DNA of 64,000 nt from Paenibacillus algicola (GTDB lineage Bacteria; Bacillota; Bacilli; Paenibacillales; Paenibacillaceae): the NCBI RefSeq assembly GCF_005577435.1, contig NZ_CP040396.1, positions 4,109,001 through 4,173,000 of the forward strand. The letters run 5' to 3'. The position numbers were made by a program, and so were the translations under genes. Positions 46,936 to 53,828 of the stretch are shown in pieces (the first letter of the stretch is position 1; each line of letters begins with the position of its first letter). Under the pieces are notes generated by a model. The model did not search any database. It had not been told where the DNA came from and saw only the letters and a list, made by a program, of their open reading frames with translations.

Positions 46936-47074
46936 TATTCTACAGGCTTTGAATAGCAACAGCTTTTCGGGAAAGACAGCTACAACGACAACGGCAAAGA
47001 CCGTGCAGCACGCCTAGCGATAGACATCGCGCTGACTCCGCGAGAACACGATAACCCCTGGCAATTCCCGCCAA

Positions 47075-47120
47075 GACAAACAAGCCAGCCCGCCGCGCTT
47101 CTAAAGCGCGGCGGGCTGGC
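47075..47120 (-). terminator. ychF terminator
   Basis: A perfect 17-bp G+C-rich stem (GCCAGCCCGCCGCGCTT and complement) with a 3-base loop, followed by TTGTTTGTCTT. Confidence 0.85.
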
Positions 47121-47131
47121 ACCGTTCTCTG

Positions 47132-48232
47132 CTATACGTTGAAACGGAAATGCATCACATCGCCGTCCTGCACGACATATTCCTTGCCTTCCAGGCGAAG
47201 CTGCCCCCGCTCCTTGGCTCCGTTCATGGAGCCGGCAGCGACCAGATCCTCGTAGGACACGACCTCGGCCCGAATGAAGCCGCGCTCGAAATCGCTGTGA
47301 ATGACACCGGCTGCTCCCGGAGCCTTCGTGCCCTTGCGAATCGTCCAGGCACGAACCTCCTGCACACCGGCGGTAAAGTAAGTGTACAAGCCGAGCAGCT
47401 TGTATGCTGCTTTAATAAGCAGGTTCAGGCCGGACTCCTGAATACCCAGCTCATCCAGGAACATCTGCTTGTCTTCTCCCTCAAGCTCGCAAATCTCCTC
47501 TTCCACCTTGGCACTGATGGGCACGACCTCGGCATTCTCCGCCGCTGCGAAATCACGAACCTTCTGCACATAGGCATTGTTCGCGACATCGCCAATCTCA
47601 TGCTCCGCTACGTTCGCCGCATATAGCACCGGCTTCAGTGTCAGCAGATGAAGATCGCGGACCAGCAGGCGCTCGTCTTCGGTCAGGTCCATGCTGCGGG
47701 CTGGCTTGTCCTCATAGAGCACCGCCTTGACCTTCTCCAGCACCTCAACCTCTTGAACAAACTGCTTGTTGCCGCCCTTCATATTCTTCTTGGAGCGTTC
47801 AATCTTCTTCTCCACGCTCTCGATATCCGCCAGAATCAGCTCCAGATTGATCGTCTGAATGTCGCTGACGGGATCAATCTTGCCGTCGACGTGGGTAATG
47901 TTCTCGTCCTCGAAGCAGCGGACGACATGCACGATCGCATCCACTTCACGGATATGTGCCAGGAACTTGTTGCCCAGCCCCTCGCCCTTGCTCGCTCCCC
48001 GGACCAGCCCGGCAATGTCCACAAATTCAAAGGCGGTCGGCACGGTCTTCTTCGGCTCCACCATCTCTGTCAGCTTGTCCAGGCGCTCATCCGGCACCTC
48101 AACAATACCTACGTTCGGATCAATCGTACAAAACGGATAGTTGGCCGATTCCGCACCTGCCTGCGTAATTGCGTTAAACAACGTCGATTTGCCGACGTTC
48201 GGCAAACCTACAATCCCTGCTTTCAAAGCCAT
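47132..48232 (-). CDS. ychF: Redox-regulated ATPase/GTPase YchF
   Basis: Obg-family P-loop NTPase that binds ribosomes and prefers ATP. The 366-residue protein has G1 [16 protein letters not shown]3 [16 protein letters not shown], a G4 that is NVAE-like instead of NKxD (the reason for ATP preference), a coiled-coil insert, and a C-terminal TGS domain ([21 protein letters not shown]). AAGGAG precedes the ATG. Promoter with extended -10 at 48295. Confidence 0.97.
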
Positions 48233-48294
48233 GTATATGACAACTCCTTATGAATAATCATCCTCAAATATCTTGCCGCTAAACAATCCTATTA

Positions 48295-48303
48295 ATTATA
48301 GCA
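48295..48303 (-). promoter_or_regulatory. ychF promoter, extended -10
   Basis: Minus-strand TGCTATAAT, about 65 bases before the ychF start; the -35 (TTTCAA at 17 bases) is weak. Confidence 0.6.
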
Positions 48304-48340
48304 GATGATCCCGGTTGTTGAAACTGAAGTTTACACAGCA

Positions 48341-48377
48341 GAACAGGCCGGCTCGCCCCTGGCGTTCCGGCCTGTTC
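48341..48377 (-). terminator. Hairpin after fni
   Basis: Minus-strand GAACAGGCCGG...CCGGCCTGTTC, 11-bp perfect stem, without a T-run. Probably a terminator or 3'-end stabiliser of the carH-fni transcript. Between it and the fni stop is about 100 bases with no gene. Confidence 0.55.
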
Positions 48378-48476
48378 CATTCCATTTGCACGGTCTTTAC
48401 TGCCAAGGCTGCCGCACGGCAAGCTCCCTGCCGGTTCTTCCCAAGCTCCGGCTGCTCCGCACATCCCGTTTACGGC

Positions 48477-49595
48477 CTATCCCAGCCTGATCAGCCGCTT
48501 ATGACCCTGCAGCTCTTCAATGGTAGCGGCTCCGATGCCGAACATGGCGATGCTCAGCTCCAGCTCGACCTGAGCCAGCCGGGCATCCAGCGCCTCCTCC
48601 GAGGCCACCGCCGAGCCCAGCAGACCCCGGCCGAAGCCGGCAATGTCTGCGCCAAGCGCAATGGTCTTGGCGGCGTCCACTCCGCTGGTAAGACCGCCGC
48701 TGCCGATGAGCTCGGTCTGCGGCAGCGCAGCCCGCACCTCAGCAATGCAATCCGCCGTGGAGTTGCCCCAATCCGCGAAGGCTTCTGCCGCGGCCTTGCG
48801 CACCGGGTCAGGACTGCGAAACTTCTCCACCTGACTCCAGGAGGTGCCGCCTGCGCCGGCAACATCAATGAAGGAGGCTCCGGCTTCCACCAGCTGTACG
48901 GCGACTTCCGCGTCGATGCCCCAGCCGACCTCCTTGATGCCGACAGGCACCTCCAGCGCCCCGCACAGCTGCTCAATTTGTTTCAGCAGCCCTTTGAAGG
49001 AAAGGTTGCCTTCCGGCTGAAACACTTCCTGCAGGCTGTTCAGATGCAGCACGAGCATGTCGGCTCCCGCAATGTCCACGGCTCTGCGGCATTGATCTGC
49101 CCCGAAGCCATAGTTCAGCTGCACAGCACCCAGATTCGCAATGACAGGAATGTCAGGCGCCGATTCCCTGACCCGGAACGTGGCAGCCAGGTCCTCCTGC
49201 TCCACCGCTGCACGGACTGAGCCGACGCCAAGCATCCATCCGCGCCGCTGCGCAGCAGCAGCCAGACGCTGATTAATCTCGCCCGTCGCCCGGCTGCCCC
49301 CGGTCATGGAGCTGATCAGGAGCGGTGTGCGCATACGGTGGGACAAGAAGGAGGCCGAGAGCTCCACCTGCTCAAAGTCCAGCTCCGGCAGAGCGTGATG
49401 GCGAAAGCGGTAGCGCTCCAGCCCCGTGGTAATCCCGCGTCCCCCCACCTCTTCCTCCAGACAGAGGCGGACGTGCTCGATTTTGCGTTCCCCGGTAGGC
49501 ACCTCCGGAATCAGCATGCCCGGATTTCCCCCTGCCGGCTGCTCACGGTGCTCCTGCGGTAAGCCTTCACGCTCCTTATTTGACTCCTTCATCAT
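48477..49595 (-). CDS. fni: Isopentenyl-diphosphate delta-isomerase, type 2
   Basis: FMN- and NADPH-dependent isomerase that balances IPP and DMAPP, the isoprenoid building blocks. The 372-residue TIM barrel shows RKIEHVRLCLE at the N terminus, LISSMTGGS, LNSLQEVFQPEGN, VAGAGGTSW and GGLTSGVDAAKTIALGAD. I start at ATG 49595, six bases after GGGGG; an upstream ATG lacks a site. It follows the CarH-like regulator by 22 bases, so both should be on one transcript, implying control by light or B12. Confidence 0.94.
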   Translation of the reverse strand: MMKESNKEREGLPQEHREQPAGGNPGMLIPEVPTGERKIEHVRLCLEEEVGGRGITTGLERYRFRHHALPELDFEQVELSASFLSHRMRTPLLISSMTGGSRATGEINQRLAAAAQRRGWMLGVGSVRAAVEQEDLAATFRVRESAPDIPVIANLGAVQLNYGFGADQCRRAVDIAGADMLVLHLNSLQEVFQPEGNLSFKGLLKQIEQLCGALEVPVGIKEVGWGIDAEVAVQLVEAGASFIDVAGAGGTSWSQVEKFRSPDPVRKAAAEAFADWGNSTADCIAEVRAALPQTELIGSGGLTSGVDAAKTIALGADIAGFGRGLLGSAVASEEALDARLAQVELELSIAMFGIGAATIEELQGHKRLIRLG

Positions 49596-49617
49596 GAGAT
49601 CCCCCATCCAATAGGTT

Positions 49618-50541
49618 TTACGGCCTCAGCTGGTGCTGGGCCAAAAATCGGCTCAGCCACTCCTGCCATTGCTCTGCCGGCTCGTTCATCACCCATTGGG
49701 TGTACCGGCTCTTTGTTCCGCTTCCGTACCCTTTGCCGCCAAGCAGAAAGAGCACCTCGGGGAACGCTTCCGAAATATAATCCACAAGCTCGTCCGCCCG
49801 TCCTACATATCTGGCATTCGTCACCGAGAGGCACACGATCCCGATTCCCTGGGAATCAATGATATCCAGCAGACCTTCTCTCGGCGTGTTGGGGCCCAGG
49901 TAGGCTACATCCAGTCCATTGCGCCGCAGCAGCAGTGAGAAGAGCATCAGGCCGACCTGATGATATTCTCCCTCCGGACAAAGCGAAAGCACCTTCGGCA
50001 TGTAAGAATGAACGGGAAATAAATGAAAAAACTGAAAAAACCGCCGTGAGATGAGCTCCGTCATGAAATGCTCCTGCGCCACCGATGCCGTGCCCGCTTC
50101 CCATGCATCTCCGACTTTCACGAGAACAGGCACCAGCACTTTGTAGAACATGGCATCATAGCCGTAAATTGAAAAGCCATAATCAATCAGGCGGTTCGCC
50201 CGCTCACTTTGAAACGTAAACAAAGCATTGAAAATCTGGCCGCTAAGCTCTTCATAAGGACCTTCCTGCTGCTCAGCGCCAAGAGTCGGAAATGGCTCAC
50301 CGCGGCCCGGTCCCGGAAAGGATTTCCCGGCCTTCAGCATCAGCACGGCCTGAGAAATGCTCATGCCCTTCTCCTCCACCTGCTCCTTCAGCCATTTCAA
50401 ATCTTCTATGTCATCCGGACTATACATCCGGTAGCCTGATTCTGTCCGCAGCGGCTTCACGGCCCCATACCGGTTCTCCCAGGCCCGGATCGTTACACTC
50501 GGCATATCCAGCATTGTGGATACTTGTTTAATAGAGTACAC
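49618..50541 (-). CDS. CarH-like MerR/B12-binding photoreceptor repressor
   Basis: Predicted adenosylcobalamin-dependent transcriptional repressor released from DNA by light. The N-terminal MerR helix-turn-helix (TIRAWENRYGAVKP, residues 18-30) is followed by a helical cap with the CarH hallmark W-x9-EH (Trp147, Glu157, His158). A B12-binding Rossmann domain with EYHQVG (His194), LSVTN and LLGGKGY follows. The residue right after Trp147 is Glu, where Thermus CarH has, as I recall, the His that ligates cobalt after light. GTG start behind GGCAGGGAA. It heads an operon with fni, and its promoter carries three 11-bp repeats. Confidence 0.88.
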   Translation of the reverse strand: MYSIKQVSTMLDMPSVTIRAWENRYGAVKPLRTESGYRMYSPDDIEDLKWLKEQVEEKGMSISQAVLMLKAGKSFPGPGRGEPFPTLGAEQQEGPYEELSGQIFNALFTFQSERANRLIDYGFSIYGYDAMFYKVLVPVLVKVGDAWEAGTASVAQEHFMTELISRRFFQFFHLFPVHSYMPKVLSLCPEGEYHQVGLMLFSLLLRRNGLDVAYLGPNTPREGLLDIIDSQGIGIVCLSVTNARYVGRADELVDYISEAFPEVLFLLGGKGYGSGTKSRYTQWVMNEPAEQWQEWLSRFLAQHQLRP

Positions 50542-50599
50542 GCGGTTCCCTGCCTTTCGATCGGTAAGAGTGATTCCCTAAATATCACGTCGCACTTTA

Positions 50600-50632
50600 T
50601 ACAAATCCAGTACATCGATTATACATAGTTTC
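50600..50632. promoter_or_regulatory. Three tandem 11-bp repeats, probable CarH operator
   Basis: On the plus strand TACA starts at 50600, 50611 and 50622, each opening an 11-base unit (TACAAATCCAG, TACATCGATTA, TACATAGTTTC). The second and third units cover the -10 box of the carH promoter. Thermus CarH is known to bind tandem 11-bp repeats with three of its four DNA-binding domains. Confidence 0.7.
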
Positions 50633-50646
50633 GCTTCCGCTGTCGA
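50618..50646 (-). promoter_or_regulatory. carH-fni promoter
   Basis: Minus-strand TCGACA, 17 bases, TATAAT. The -10 lies inside the tandem repeats, which fits autorepression. Confidence 0.75.
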
Positions 50647-50744
50647 CCAGGAAGACGGCTTCTTTCCCGCCGTACAGCTTGCTTCAATTATGGCCGAGGT
50701 TGGTAAATGGTTTTAACGACCCTTATACAGAAAGAAGGATGGCT

Positions 50745-52256
50745 ATGATTCTGTTCAGCCTATTTAACAACTTACCGGAAGCATCGGCTGGGGCTCAGCC
50801 TGCACACACCCGCCGCCGTTCTCCCCGCTTCTGGGTAAAAACAGCGGTGCTGCTTCTTTTTGCCTGGCTGCTGGCTGTCCTCGTGTACCATACTCAAAAG
50901 CCGCTGCCGGACGGCATTTCCTACGAAAGCCCGCTGTACCAAAGTACGGAGGTTGCCTTCTGGCATGACCTGACCTATCCGGGGCCGGACGGCCAGGCAG
51001 TGCACGAGCAGCAAATTTATGATCGAATGCATGAAATCATTGACGAGTCGAGACAATTTCTCGTGATCGACATGTTTCTTTTTAATGACTATACCCATAA
51101 AGACCAATCCTTCCCTCAGGTCAGCCGCGAAATGACAGACCATCTGATCTCGCACAAGAGCAAGCATCCGGAAATGGACATGTTCTTGATTACCGATGAG
51201 GTCAACACAAACTACGGCTCTTCCAAAAACCCGCTGCTAGAGGATCTGAAGCAGGCAGGCATTACCGTCATCATCACAAATGTGGAGCCGCTTCGTGATT
51301 CCACGCCAATCTATTCGGCTTTCTGGAGAACCTTTATTCAATGGTTCGGGCAAGCCGGGGAGGGCCAGGTGCCCAACCTGATGGCGGAGGAGGCCCCGGA
51401 TATGACGGTCCGCTCGTACATGAAGCTGCTGAACGTCAAGGCCAATCACCGTAAGGTGATCGTGAGCGAACGTACCGCCCTCGTCTCCTCCGCCAATGTG
51501 CATGCGGCCAGTGCCTACCACTCCAACATCGCCTTTGAGGCCGGCGGTGAAGTCATCCGGGATGTGCTTGCAGCAGAGCAGGCGGCTGCCAGTCTGAGCG
51601 GCCCGTATACATTGCCGGTCTATACTCCGTCGGAAGAAACACAGCCGGCACCGGGGCTGTCTGCTGACATCCGATATTTGACGGAAGGCAAGGTGTACAA
51701 ATATGTGCTGAAGGCGATTGAAGAAGCGGAAGCCGGCGATACCCTGTGGATGGGTATGTTCTATCTCGCTGAGGGCGAGGTGATGGACGAGCTTGTCGCC
51801 GCATCACAGCGCGGCGTGCAGGTGCGGCTGATTCTGGACCCCAATCAGAACGCTTTTGGTCGGGACAAGATCGGCATTCCGAACCGCCCGGCCGCCGCAG
51901 AGCTGAAGGAGCGCTCCGGAAACAGCATTGATATTCGCTGGTACAACACAGGCGAGGAGCAGTATCACACCAAGCTTCTGTTTATTTCCAAGCCCTCCAA
52001 GCCGTCCATCATGATTGGCGGCTCGACCAATTTTACCCCCCGCAACCTGAAGGATTACAACCTGGAGAACAACTTTTGGCTGTCCGCTGAGAAGGAGCAT
52101 GAGGTCACGAAACAGGTCAATGACTATTTCAACAGGCTGTGGAACAACGTGGATGCGGAGTACACCTTGGAGCTGAGCGCTTACGAAGAAGACACCGTCT
52201 GGCTCAAAAGCGTGGCGTTCCGGATTCAGAAGCTGCTGGGCTTTACGACCTTTTAA
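50745..52256 (+). CDS. Membrane-anchored phospholipase D-like protein
   Basis: The 503-residue protein has one N-terminal membrane helix (FWVKTAVLLLFAWLLAVLVY) and two phospholipase D-type domains outside or inside the membrane. The first HKD-like site is NHRKVIVSERTALVSSAN, the second QYHTKLLFISK...GGSTNFTPRN; both keep His and Lys. It may be a cardiolipin-synthase-like or nuclease-like enzyme; substrate is not clear. AAGG precedes the ATG at 50745 (ATG 50739 is the alternative). It diverges from carH across the operator region, so CarH could also affect it. Confidence 0.85.
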   Translation: MILFSLFNNLPEASAGAQPAHTRRRSPRFWVKTAVLLLFAWLLAVLVYHTQKPLPDGISYESPLYQSTEVAFWHDLTYPGPDGQAVHEQQIYDRMHEIIDESRQFLVIDMFLFNDYTHKDQSFPQVSREMTDHLISHKSKHPEMDMFLITDEVNTNYGSSKNPLLEDLKQAGITVIITNVEPLRDSTPIYSAFWRTFIQWFGQAGEGQVPNLMAEEAPDMTVRSYMKLLNVKANHRKVIVSERTALVSSANVHAASAYHSNIAFEAGGEVIRDVLAAEQAAASLSGPYTLPVYTPSEETQPAPGLSADIRYLTEGKVYKYVLKAIEEAEAGDTLWMGMFYLAEGEVMDELVAASQRGVQVRLILDPNQNAFGRDKIGIPNRPAAAELKERSGNSIDIRWYNTGEEQYHTKLLFISKPSKPSIMIGGSTNFTPRNLKDYNLENNFWLSAEKEHEVTKQVNDYFNRLWNNVDAEYTLELSAYEEDTVWLKSVAFRIQKLLGFTTF

Positions 52257-52312
52257 GCTTCCGCTTTCAATCTCTACCTTCCAAGCTTAGCAGCTTCATG
52301 ATGCTTAGAACC

Positions 52313-52344
52313 AAATAACTCCTGCTAAACAGCAGGAGCTATTT
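52313..52344. terminator. Bidirectional terminator
   Basis: AATAACTCCTGCT-AAAC-AGCAGGAGCTATT, between convergent genes; T-runs on both sides are modest. Confidence 0.65.
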
Positions 52345-52363
52345 GAGATGATTAATGCTTTTA

Positions 52364-53074
52364 TCACTTGTGGGAGTTCTCCTTCTCGGTGATCGGATAA
52401 CCTCTAGTGCCATCTGTGTTAGGATCTACATTTTGAAACTGGGCCTGCTTAAGATAACTTATTGTTTTATCGGAATCCCATAACTGATTTTGATCCATGC
52501 CACTCATTAAAGCCATTTTCTCTGAGGTGAAATCTGGAATATTGACTTCTTTGCCATCTACGTTTGTCACAAGATACCTGACATTTCCATCTTTTATTAA
52601 GGCTAGTTCAATGTGTTCACTTGCTGAAGCAAGTGAGCTTGTCATCTTCGCTAATGACTTGGACAATCCGGATGCATCTCCTCCTGCAGATATGACTCTG
52701 AAACGACCTCCGTTTCTTTCAACGGTTAAAAAGGATTTACCTTCCCCATTAGACAGAACAATAAATTCATATTGTCCTGTTGGTTTTGAAACGTCTATTA
52801 AACTTGATTTAACGTTTGCAAATTTGTCGGCATCAATCCAATTTATTTGAAAGCCGGGCCCTAGTGTAACTTGACCTACTTCTTCTATGTCCTTATATCC
52901 AAATCCAATCGGATCCTCGGAAATCAGTTTCTTAAACTCTTCAAGTCCGGCGTCGTTAGCATAATGTCGAATATCATCCGGGACCCTGACACTAGCATCA
53001 ATGTTTGAGAACAAAGAAGCAGAGCAAATGGTAACACCAACCAACAATATATAGAAATATTTCAGATATTTCAT
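52364..53074 (-). CDS. Hypothetical secreted protein
   Basis: Not recognised. The 236-residue product has a signal peptide (MKYLKYFYILLVGVTICSAS) and a soluble remainder with DPIGFGYKDIEEVGQVTLG and a C-terminal Asp/Asn-rich part. AAAGGAGG precedes the ATG. The gene is visibly more A+T-rich than its neighbours, suggesting transfer or weak constraint. It is alone on its strand between the phospholipase-like gene and a TetR operon. Confidence 0.75.
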   Translation of the reverse strand: MKYLKYFYILLVGVTICSASLFSNIDASVRVPDDIRHYANDAGLEEFKKLISEDPIGFGYKDIEEVGQVTLGPGFQINWIDADKFANVKSSLIDVSKPTGQYEFIVLSNGEGKSFLTVERNGGRFRVISAGGDASGLSKSLAKMTSSLASASEHIELALIKDGNVRYLVTNVDGKEVNIPDFTSEKMALMSGMDQNQLWDSDKTISYLKQAQFQNVDPNTDGTRGYPITEKENSHK

Positions 53075-53184
53075 GGATAACTTCCTCCTTTGTTTTCTGG
53101 GTATTCCATATACCTAATAACGCCCACAAATGAAATAAGTTACCTTTTCAAGTAAAAGCCATGACGGAAAATCACAAGGCAAAC

Positions 53185-53213
53185 TTGACAAGGAAAGTTA
53201 GGTTTGCAACAAT
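53185..53213 (+). promoter_or_regulatory. Promoter of the TetR-SMR operon
   Basis: TTGACA, 17 bases, AACAAT, immediately upstream of the operator palindrome. Confidence 0.7.
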
Positions 53214-53217
53214 AGTG

Positions 53218-53233
53218 CCTAACGATCGTTAGG
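53218..53233 (+). promoter_or_regulatory. TetR operator palindrome
   Basis: CCTAACGATCGTTAGG, a perfect 16-bp palindrome between the -10 box and the ribosome binding site; typical position and sequence for TetR autorepression. Confidence 0.75.
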
Positions 53234-53246
53234 TAGGAGGTGGGCG

Positions 53247-53828
53247 ATGCACAGCTCCAAACAGATTTTGCAGGCCGCGCTGGCTCATTTTGCCCGGGAC
53301 GGCTATGAGGGCGCTTCACTTCAGGGGATTGCCGAGGACTGCGGCATCCGGAAGCCGTCCATTTATGCCCATTACAGCAGTAAAGGCGATTTGTTCCTGC
53401 AGGCCGTAAAGGATGTATTCCAGCGGCAGGAGCAGAACATTGTCGGCTTTTTCAGTCAGCATCAGGAGCTTTCGCTGGAAGAGATGCTGAAGAGCTTTTT
53501 GCAGCAGCGGCTGGAGCAATATACCCGGGACGATGAGGCACGGTTTTTTTTGCGGGTGTCCTTTTTCCCGCCGAGGGCACTCTATGAAGAGGTCATGAAT
53601 ATTGTATATCCGTTTCTTGACCGTCATGAGGCCTGTCTTTCGCAGCTGCTCGCGGCAGGATGTCCGCAGCACGGCAGGATTATTTCCCGGCCTGATCAGG
53701 CAGCCTCGGTCTTTTTGACGTTGCTGGACGGCATTCATGTAGAAATTCTGTATGGCGGTGAAGAGCGTGCCGCCCGGCGGCTGGCTCATGCCTGGCCGGT
53801 GTACTGGCAAGGGGTAACACGCTCTTGA
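53247..53828 (+). CDS. TetR family repressor of the SMR exporter
   Basis: DNA-binding repressor of 193 residues with the N-terminal helix-turn-helix (GASLQGIAEDCGIRKPSIYAHYSSKGDLF) and a divergent ligand-binding helical domain. AGGAGG lies six bases before the ATG. The palindrome just upstream and the two SMR genes downstream indicate an autoregulated, ligand-inducible export operon. Confidence 0.92.
   Translation: MHSSKQILQAALAHFARDGYEGASLQGIAEDCGIRKPSIYAHYSSKGDLFLQAVKDVFQRQEQNIVGFFSQHQELSLEEMLKSFLQQRLEQYTRDDEARFFLRVSFFPPRALYEEVMNIVYPFLDRHEACLSQLLAAGCPQHGRIISRPDQAASVFLTLLDGIHVEILYGGEERAARRLAHAWPVYWQGVTRS

Follow-up and report, generated by a model that had tools for sequence, protein, structure and literature searches.

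In the CarH systems of Bacillus (Priestia) megaterium and Thermus thermophilus, an operator of tandem 11-bp repeats lies over the promoter (PMC9304148; PMC8156234). The published repeat is nnnnTnnACAn (the TnnACA rule), and pseudo-repeats are tolerated (PMC9304148). An intact Wx9EH motif alongside the B12-binding motif has been suggested to help tell CarH from CarA (PMC9304148). For the myxobacterial CarH/CarA systems, carotenogenic genes are described at several unlinked loci in Sorangiineae, and the operators are plastic, with full and partial repeats and, in an M. xanthus operator, inverted repeats (PMC9304148). Within Paenibacillus, P. aurantius MBLB1776 has genes for type 2 IDI, crtM/crtN-type proteins, a carotenoid-biosynthesis protein, an acyltransferase, and a glycosyltransferase clustered with a gene for a cobalamin B12-binding domain protein (PMC10673419). 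That gene is listed there only as a B12-binding protein and is not named CarH. A light-responsive isolate closest to Paenibacillus alvei has also been reported (PMC6739363). Among the literature matches listed, no title or abstract opening deals with CarH/LitR regulation in Paenibacillus.

The window analyzed here (a stretch of 64,000 nucleotides from Paenibacillus algicola) carries a carH-like gene followed by fni. Its tandem 11-bp operator over the promoter resembles those of B. megaterium and T. thermophilus. The protein shares domain order, Wx9EH, and the B12 motif with T. thermophilus CarH, and the likeness to B. megaterium CarH is drawn from the published operator and mechanism (PMC9304148; PMC8156234). 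In contrast to both systems, the local operon holds fni in place of crt genes, and the presumed crt operator of this genome is distant and half inverted. Compared with P. aurantius MBLB1776, in which all genes are in one cluster (PMC10673419), those of the window species are split over two loci. The dispersed loci and plastic operators of myxobacteria offer a parallel, although the window species belongs to another phylum, its distant crt operon was apparently acquired, and the half-sites there are two forward and two reversed. We rate the window system as a variant of the known CarH/LitR system. The reading that we favor, with reasonable confidence, is a CarH/LitR-type repressor of its own carH-fni operon, itself a cluster remnant, which probably also induces an unlinked crt operon and perhaps a gene for a SpoIIAA-like protein. 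Operator binding, the light response, and control of crt in trans are the parts of this reading that we infer.

Features of the regulator

The carH-like gene (49618..50541, minus strand) has a GTG start and encodes 307 amino acids, with a MerR helix-turn-helix domain and helical and Rossmann B12-binding domains. The original prediction of a CarH-like MerR-B12 regulator agrees with a profile search in which PF13411, PF00376, PF02607, and PF02310 all score above their cut-offs, and both motifs on which it relied, W-x9-EH and E-x-H-x2-G, are confirmed in the product, the latter extending to E-x-H-x2-G...S-x-T...GG. By sequence, the closest solved relatives are the T. thermophilus CarH entries. 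Wx9EH is present in all 21 proteins compared (the window protein and 20 relatives), and the strictly spaced pattern D/ExHx2G/P-x41-SxT/V-x22-27-GG in four of them, namely the window protein and three of the 20 relatives. The recognition helix reads RAWENRY, one position different from the family form RxWERRY, and RxWExRY is found in 20 of the 21.

With what we take to be the T. thermophilus residue numbers, which agree with the chain offset found in the alignment, Trp131, Glu141, His142, and His177 correspond to Trp147, Glu157, His158, and His194 and are conserved in the window protein. Two features differ from T. thermophilus CarH. His132, directly after the key Trp, is replaced by Glu148, and the Arg176/Asp201 pair of the dimer interface is replaced by Tyr193/Asn218, with no Glu/Asp-Arg equivalent. 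In T. thermophilus CarH, the His after the motif Trp serves as the upper ligand after light (a bis-His adduct), and it is described for many, not all, homologues, as is the Arg-Asp salt-bridge pair or its Glu/Asp-Arg equivalent (PMC9304148). These substitutions may suggest a B12-independent or differently triggered relative that lacks AdoCbl light sensing, and such kinds have been described, namely CarA (PMC9304148), class III LitR (PMC6739363), and class II LitR (PMC9758184). However, the window protein has both Wx9EH and the B12 motif, and the His after Trp is not family-defining, since it is given for many CarH homologues only (PMC9304148). We consider a relative of that kind improbable.

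The window protein misses the cut-off of the NCBIfam CarH equivalog NF052513 (140.7 of 400 bits), which is a naming threshold rather than a biological feature. Six other homologues scanned against this model score 127.7–159.5 bits, all under the cut-off, so the model appears to be narrow. The comparison of carH with its P. lemnae counterpart gives a low dN/dS (0.158/1.63), a value that is rough because dS is near saturation. A cobalamin adenosyltransferase is encoded in the same genome. Assignment of the regulator to the CarH/LitR type is supported by its sequence. Photoreceptors of this family bind AdoCbl, form a tetramer in the dark, and disassemble and let go of DNA in the light; the window protein would be expected to bind AdoCbl and respond to light.

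Promoter and operator of the carH-fni operon

Downstream of carH, the predicted type 2 isopentenyl-diphosphate isomerase gene (fni; 48477..49607, minus strand) passes the TIGR02151 equivalog (386.7 bits, cut-off 281.3). The intergenic gap of 22 bases given earlier holds for the internal ATG at 49595; from the longest start at 49607, it is 10 bases. Read along the minus strand, 48477-50646 contains promoter, operator, carH-like gene, and fni, all in the same direction. The search for terminator-like sites gave none between carH and fni, in line with a single transcript, and Rfam gave no match in 47000-53500.

The promoter TCGACA-17-TATAAT (minus strand, 50646..50618) has its -35 box at 50641..50646 and its -10 box at 50618..50623. 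It matches 11 of 12 positions and ranks first among three promoter-like sites in 47100-52300 (shuffles give 2.5). The operator (50598..50625, plus-strand coordinates) consists of three units spaced by 11 bp, TATACA, AGTACA, and TATACA, the third of which overlaps the -10 box. The TACA motifs at 50600, 50611, and 50622 are exactly 11 bp apart and cover the -10 box, as had been noted, and they form the sole such triple on both strands of the 64 kb. The description of this site as a three-repeat operator needs one qualification: units 1 and 3 are full repeats, whereas unit 2 lacks the T of TnnACA and is a pseudo-repeat under the published rule (PMC9304148).

The genome scan for 11-bp TACA triples that the original prediction proposed was less discriminating, with four exact triples compared with three for a reversed control pattern. 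It is the position and not the string that is rare. Given these counts, we do not use the exact triple alone as genome-wide evidence, and conservation is the real argument. The other three exact triples in the genome, at L004, L005, and L006, were read for neighboring open reading frames, and the L005 site has a matrix score of 16.0. The scoring matrix was built from 115 distinct sites of 44 related loci, with the window, P. lemnae, and genome G096 excluded from training; it was trained on TACA pairs and thus favors TACA-pair sites. Its top site in the 64 kb is 50594-50618 (score 20.6), followed by the overlapping next pair (13.7), and the best non-target score is 9.4. The sequence supports carH-fni as an operon with an autoregulatory tandem-repeat operator.

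The divergent phospholipase-D-like gene (50679-52256, plus strand; one PLD domain match) had been proposed as a possible further target. Among 20 wide loci, 13 have this gene as the immediate divergent neighbor of carH. Where another gene intervenes (L039, L040, and L041), the operator stays beside carH, and the same is true in L038, L053, and L055, in which the phospholipase-D-like gene is not seen within 5.5 kb. In addition, no sigma-70-like promoter was found on the plus strand of 47100-52300. Because the operator stays with carH and no such promoter was found in that interval, regulation of this gene by CarH is unsupported.

Conservation of the operator

Among 100 same-genus genomes searched, 45 (the window genome included) have a full-length carH match, and 30 loci from these, again including the window locus, were examined for the operator. 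Three in-phase nACA units occur within 140 bp upstream of carH in all 30 loci, and in 26 of them the units are TACA. A second triple-TACA array is present 0.9–1.4 kb from the carH start in 24 of the 30; the window, P. lemnae, and G096 belong to the six loci without this downstream array. A count against background comes from 46 named loci, drawn from 76, that belong to the Paenibacillus carH clade (one is titled Neobacillus, and two are from one genome). The 140 bp upstream of carH hold 35 exact triples (in 35 of the 46 loci), the segment immediately after carH holds 38 (in 20 of the 46), and all other DNA of these loci holds five (959,376 bp in total). An alignment of the window with P. lemnae and G096 shows no variation in 30 of 33 operator columns. 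TGTCGA at the -35 position and a block of 14 columns close to the ribosome-binding site are also invariant, and most other intergenic columns are variable.

Apparent loss of crt genes from the carH locus

The gene content of related loci suggests an origin for the carH-fni pair. Of the 46 named loci, 43 have a crtI1 match after carH (in P. pabuli only as a fragment), and 44 have fni downstream of carH, inside the 10-kb flank. The genes typically follow one another as carH, crtI1, crtI2, squalene/phytoene-synthase gene, CruF-like gene, acyltransferase, glycosyltransferase, crtI3, and fni. In the window genome, P. lemnae, and G096, fni directly follows carH. Since both crt genes and fni follow carH in nearly all relatives, carH-fni looks like the two ends of this cluster without its middle, and the pair is apparently what a larger carH-crt-fni cluster left behind after losing its crt genes. 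Between carH and fni, only crt fragments are found in P. pabuli, only crtI3 in P. dokdonensis, and no crt gene in P. zeisoli.

This staged loss could mean that carH-fni is itself a decaying leftover whose regulation no longer works. Such decay is very unlikely here: the signature residues are intact, dN/dS is low, and conservation of the operator contrasts with change across much of the intergenic DNA around it.

Several individual loci deserve mention. In P. pabuli (L079), the fragments between carH and fni match crtI1 and crtI3 only and lie 1.1–2.3 kb after the carH start, a pattern that a deletion from one of these related genes into the other would leave. Paenibacillus sp. OVF10 has the carH-crt cluster twice (L083 and L084), near both ends of one chromosome record, possibly as an assembly overlap. 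Downstream of carH-fni in G096 (L038, 12158-14843, plus strand) are LpxC, LpxD, and LpxA homologues, followed by ychF; these are lipid A-type genes in a single-membraned group. Two carH-like matches are in tandem in L125, L137, and L138; a CarH-type site precedes the upstream copy at a distance of about 0.1 kb in L137 and 0.8 kb in L125.

An unlinked crt operon

The observation that no carotenoid gene is present nearby is correct for the operon in the window, but it misleads as a pointer to a general isoprenoid boost, as a seven-gene crt operon is found elsewhere in the genome. It starts at G000:C1:2108528, about 2.05 Mb from carH-fni on the 4.475-Mb contig, and has all seven genes in the typical order. 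The same seven-gene operon is present in P. lemnae, on its contig C5. Reading of the open reading frames beside the operon in the window genome did not identify a regulator gene.

The history of this operon appears to differ from that of carH. A family-wide search with crtI1 of the window genome gave matches in 143 of 394 genomes at E 1e-120. In 24 of 30 loci taken from this search, carH lies within 1.5 kb upstream of crtI1; the other six are the window genome, P. lemnae, and four loci with a glycosyltransferase-like match in that position. The carH phylogeny, which has many long branches, unites the window, P. lemnae, and G096 with support 100 and places them near P. dokdonensis. In the crtI1 phylogeny, the window and P. 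lemnae group with eight rows (support 100); seven of these carry other genus codes of the family, and the eighth is named Paenibacillus sp. J5C2022. Both are trees of the quick kind with one support value. Constraining crtI1 of the window with 20 same-genus rows was rejected (AU p 0.0008). The crtM tree, which contains no other-genus rows from the family search, gives only a long isolated branch for the window and P. lemnae. Because the crtI1 tree places the first desaturase of the operon outside the genus, unlike carH, the crt operon was probably acquired. Loss of the crt genes and subsequent acquisition of another crt operon is the simplest reading of the discordant trees.

No tandem triple is present at the promoter of the distant operon. 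Instead, the promoter contains TTTGCAAACCT TATACAAATAA AGTATAATGTT TGTAAA in the window genome and TTTACAAACAT TATACATATGA TGTATAATGTT TGTAAA in P. lemnae. These stretches comprise four TnnACA-type half-sites at successive 11-bp steps, two of them in forward and two in reversed orientation; two of the four are exact in the window genome, and the other two have one mismatch each. This geometry is unlike the CarH arrays mapped in T. thermophilus and B. megaterium, which are tandem. The site is a near-palindrome, with perfect 18-bp arms in P. lemnae, and covers the -10 region. The half-sites have matrix scores of 19.8 and 16.9 in the window genome and of 23.2 and 18.8 in P. lemnae. The remainder of the locus scores far lower, except that an unrelated site reaches 13.2 in P. 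lemnae. With up to two mismatches, the 2+2 pattern is found at two places in the 4.475 Mb, one of which is the crt promoter, and the control pattern at one place.

A near-palindrome over the -10 region is what ordinary dyad-binding regulators use, and together with the lack of a tandem triple it raises the possibility that another regulator controls the distant operon through this inverted repeat, with CarH restricted to carH-fni. We regard this as a credible alternative, but not the expected one. The half-sites have the TnnACA form, are exactly 11 bp apart, and share the core AAACnTTATACA with the CarH operators of relatives. With the exception noted for P. lemnae, they outscore the rest of the locus under a matrix derived from CarH operators, and the neighboring open reading frames offer no recognized regulator gene. 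The half-sites of the crt promoter are suggestive of a CarH target.

The same evidence bears on the proposal that carH-fni provides a light-controlled general isoprenoid boost with no tie to carotenoids. The local operon has no crt gene. Moreover, among seven genomes tested that have carH and fni without a full linked cluster, five lack a match to SQS_PSY (phytoene/squalene synthase) and still keep both genes, although for two of the five (P. zeisoli and P. pabuli) completeness is unstated. The operator is intact in G096, one of the five. The two genomes with a SQS_PSY match are the window genome and P. lemnae. Against this proposal, the related loci link fni and crt matches to carH in the proportions given above, and the window genome has its own seven-gene crt operon with CarH-type half-sites. 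Because the relatives have a single carH-crt-fni cluster and the distant crt operon carries such half-sites, a general boost is not indicated in the window genome, and we consider it unlikely. It may yet apply to the five relatives that have carH-fni and lack an SQS_PSY match.

Search for additional target sites

The tandem pattern with one mismatch has nine hits in the genome, compared with two for the control, and the core pattern has four hits at three places, compared with none. Both patterns find TTGACAAACATTATACATACATCATACA, a CarH-type tandem site just upstream of a gene for a SpoIIAA-like protein of 129 amino acids (G000:C1:2980210-2980640; L179). The product matches PF11964 with 22 bits, under the cut-off of 25. 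The site scores 28.2, the highest among the scored stretches of the window genome; this score is less special than it looks, because the reversed matrix used as a control reaches 23.1 in the same locus. The SpoIIAA-like gene has matches in five of 100 same-genus genomes, one of them weak. By eye, in-phase half-sites are present upstream of the P. lemnae orthologue, and none are seen upstream of those in P. antarcticus and G034. The SpoIIAA-like gene is perhaps a third CarH target.

The nine tandem hits also include the window operator and two overlapping hits at one site (also L006). For the five remaining hits, the nearby open reading frames were read and the best matrix score was 14.9; they were left aside. 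The core-pattern hit at G000:C1:452558 was dropped, as it lies inside an open reading frame.

A control of the matrix on real flanking DNA also counts against our reading. In 1,386,237 bp of flanking DNA, seven sites score at least 18, equivalent to about 23 per genome, compared with about one per genome in the random-sequence control. These seven sites are in L123, L125, L130, and L137. The 46 Paenibacillus carH-clade loci contain none of them, and the best flanking-DNA score within those loci is 17.3 (L082).

Discussion

By analogy with CarH (PMC8156234; PMC9304148), the AdoCbl-bound protein would occupy the repeats over the -10 box in the dark and block RNA polymerase. Light would break the Co-C bond and release the protein, such that carH and fni would be induced. 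In the history proposed here, the crt genes would have been lost from an ancestral carH-crt-fni cluster, with carH-fni left behind, and the window species, like P. lemnae, would have obtained a separate crt operon elsewhere in the genome, probably by acquisition. Because the crt promoter has CarH-type half-sites, the same regulator probably acts at two unlinked loci to induce pigment genes together with the gene for their precursor enzyme. The fni product would provide isomerised precursor for pigment synthesis. The SpoIIAA-like gene is perhaps under the same regulator.

A bolder form of this reading is that one native CarH rules a horizontally acquired crt operon in trans through a new 2+2 geometry, in addition to carH-fni and the SpoIIAA-like gene. 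The light regulon would then have shed its own pigment genes, taken up foreign ones at another site, and been rewired. We put this forward tentatively, as somewhat short of an even prospect.

The carH-fni locus may offer a natural case for testing how a repressor that senses light keeps up with its targets when a gene cluster breaks: the sensor and the precursor enzyme stay in place, and the pigment genes disappear and are regained from another lineage. For Paenibacillus, a set of CarH-type operators defined by sequence is now available, and light control of carotenoids is predicted in these common soil bacteria.
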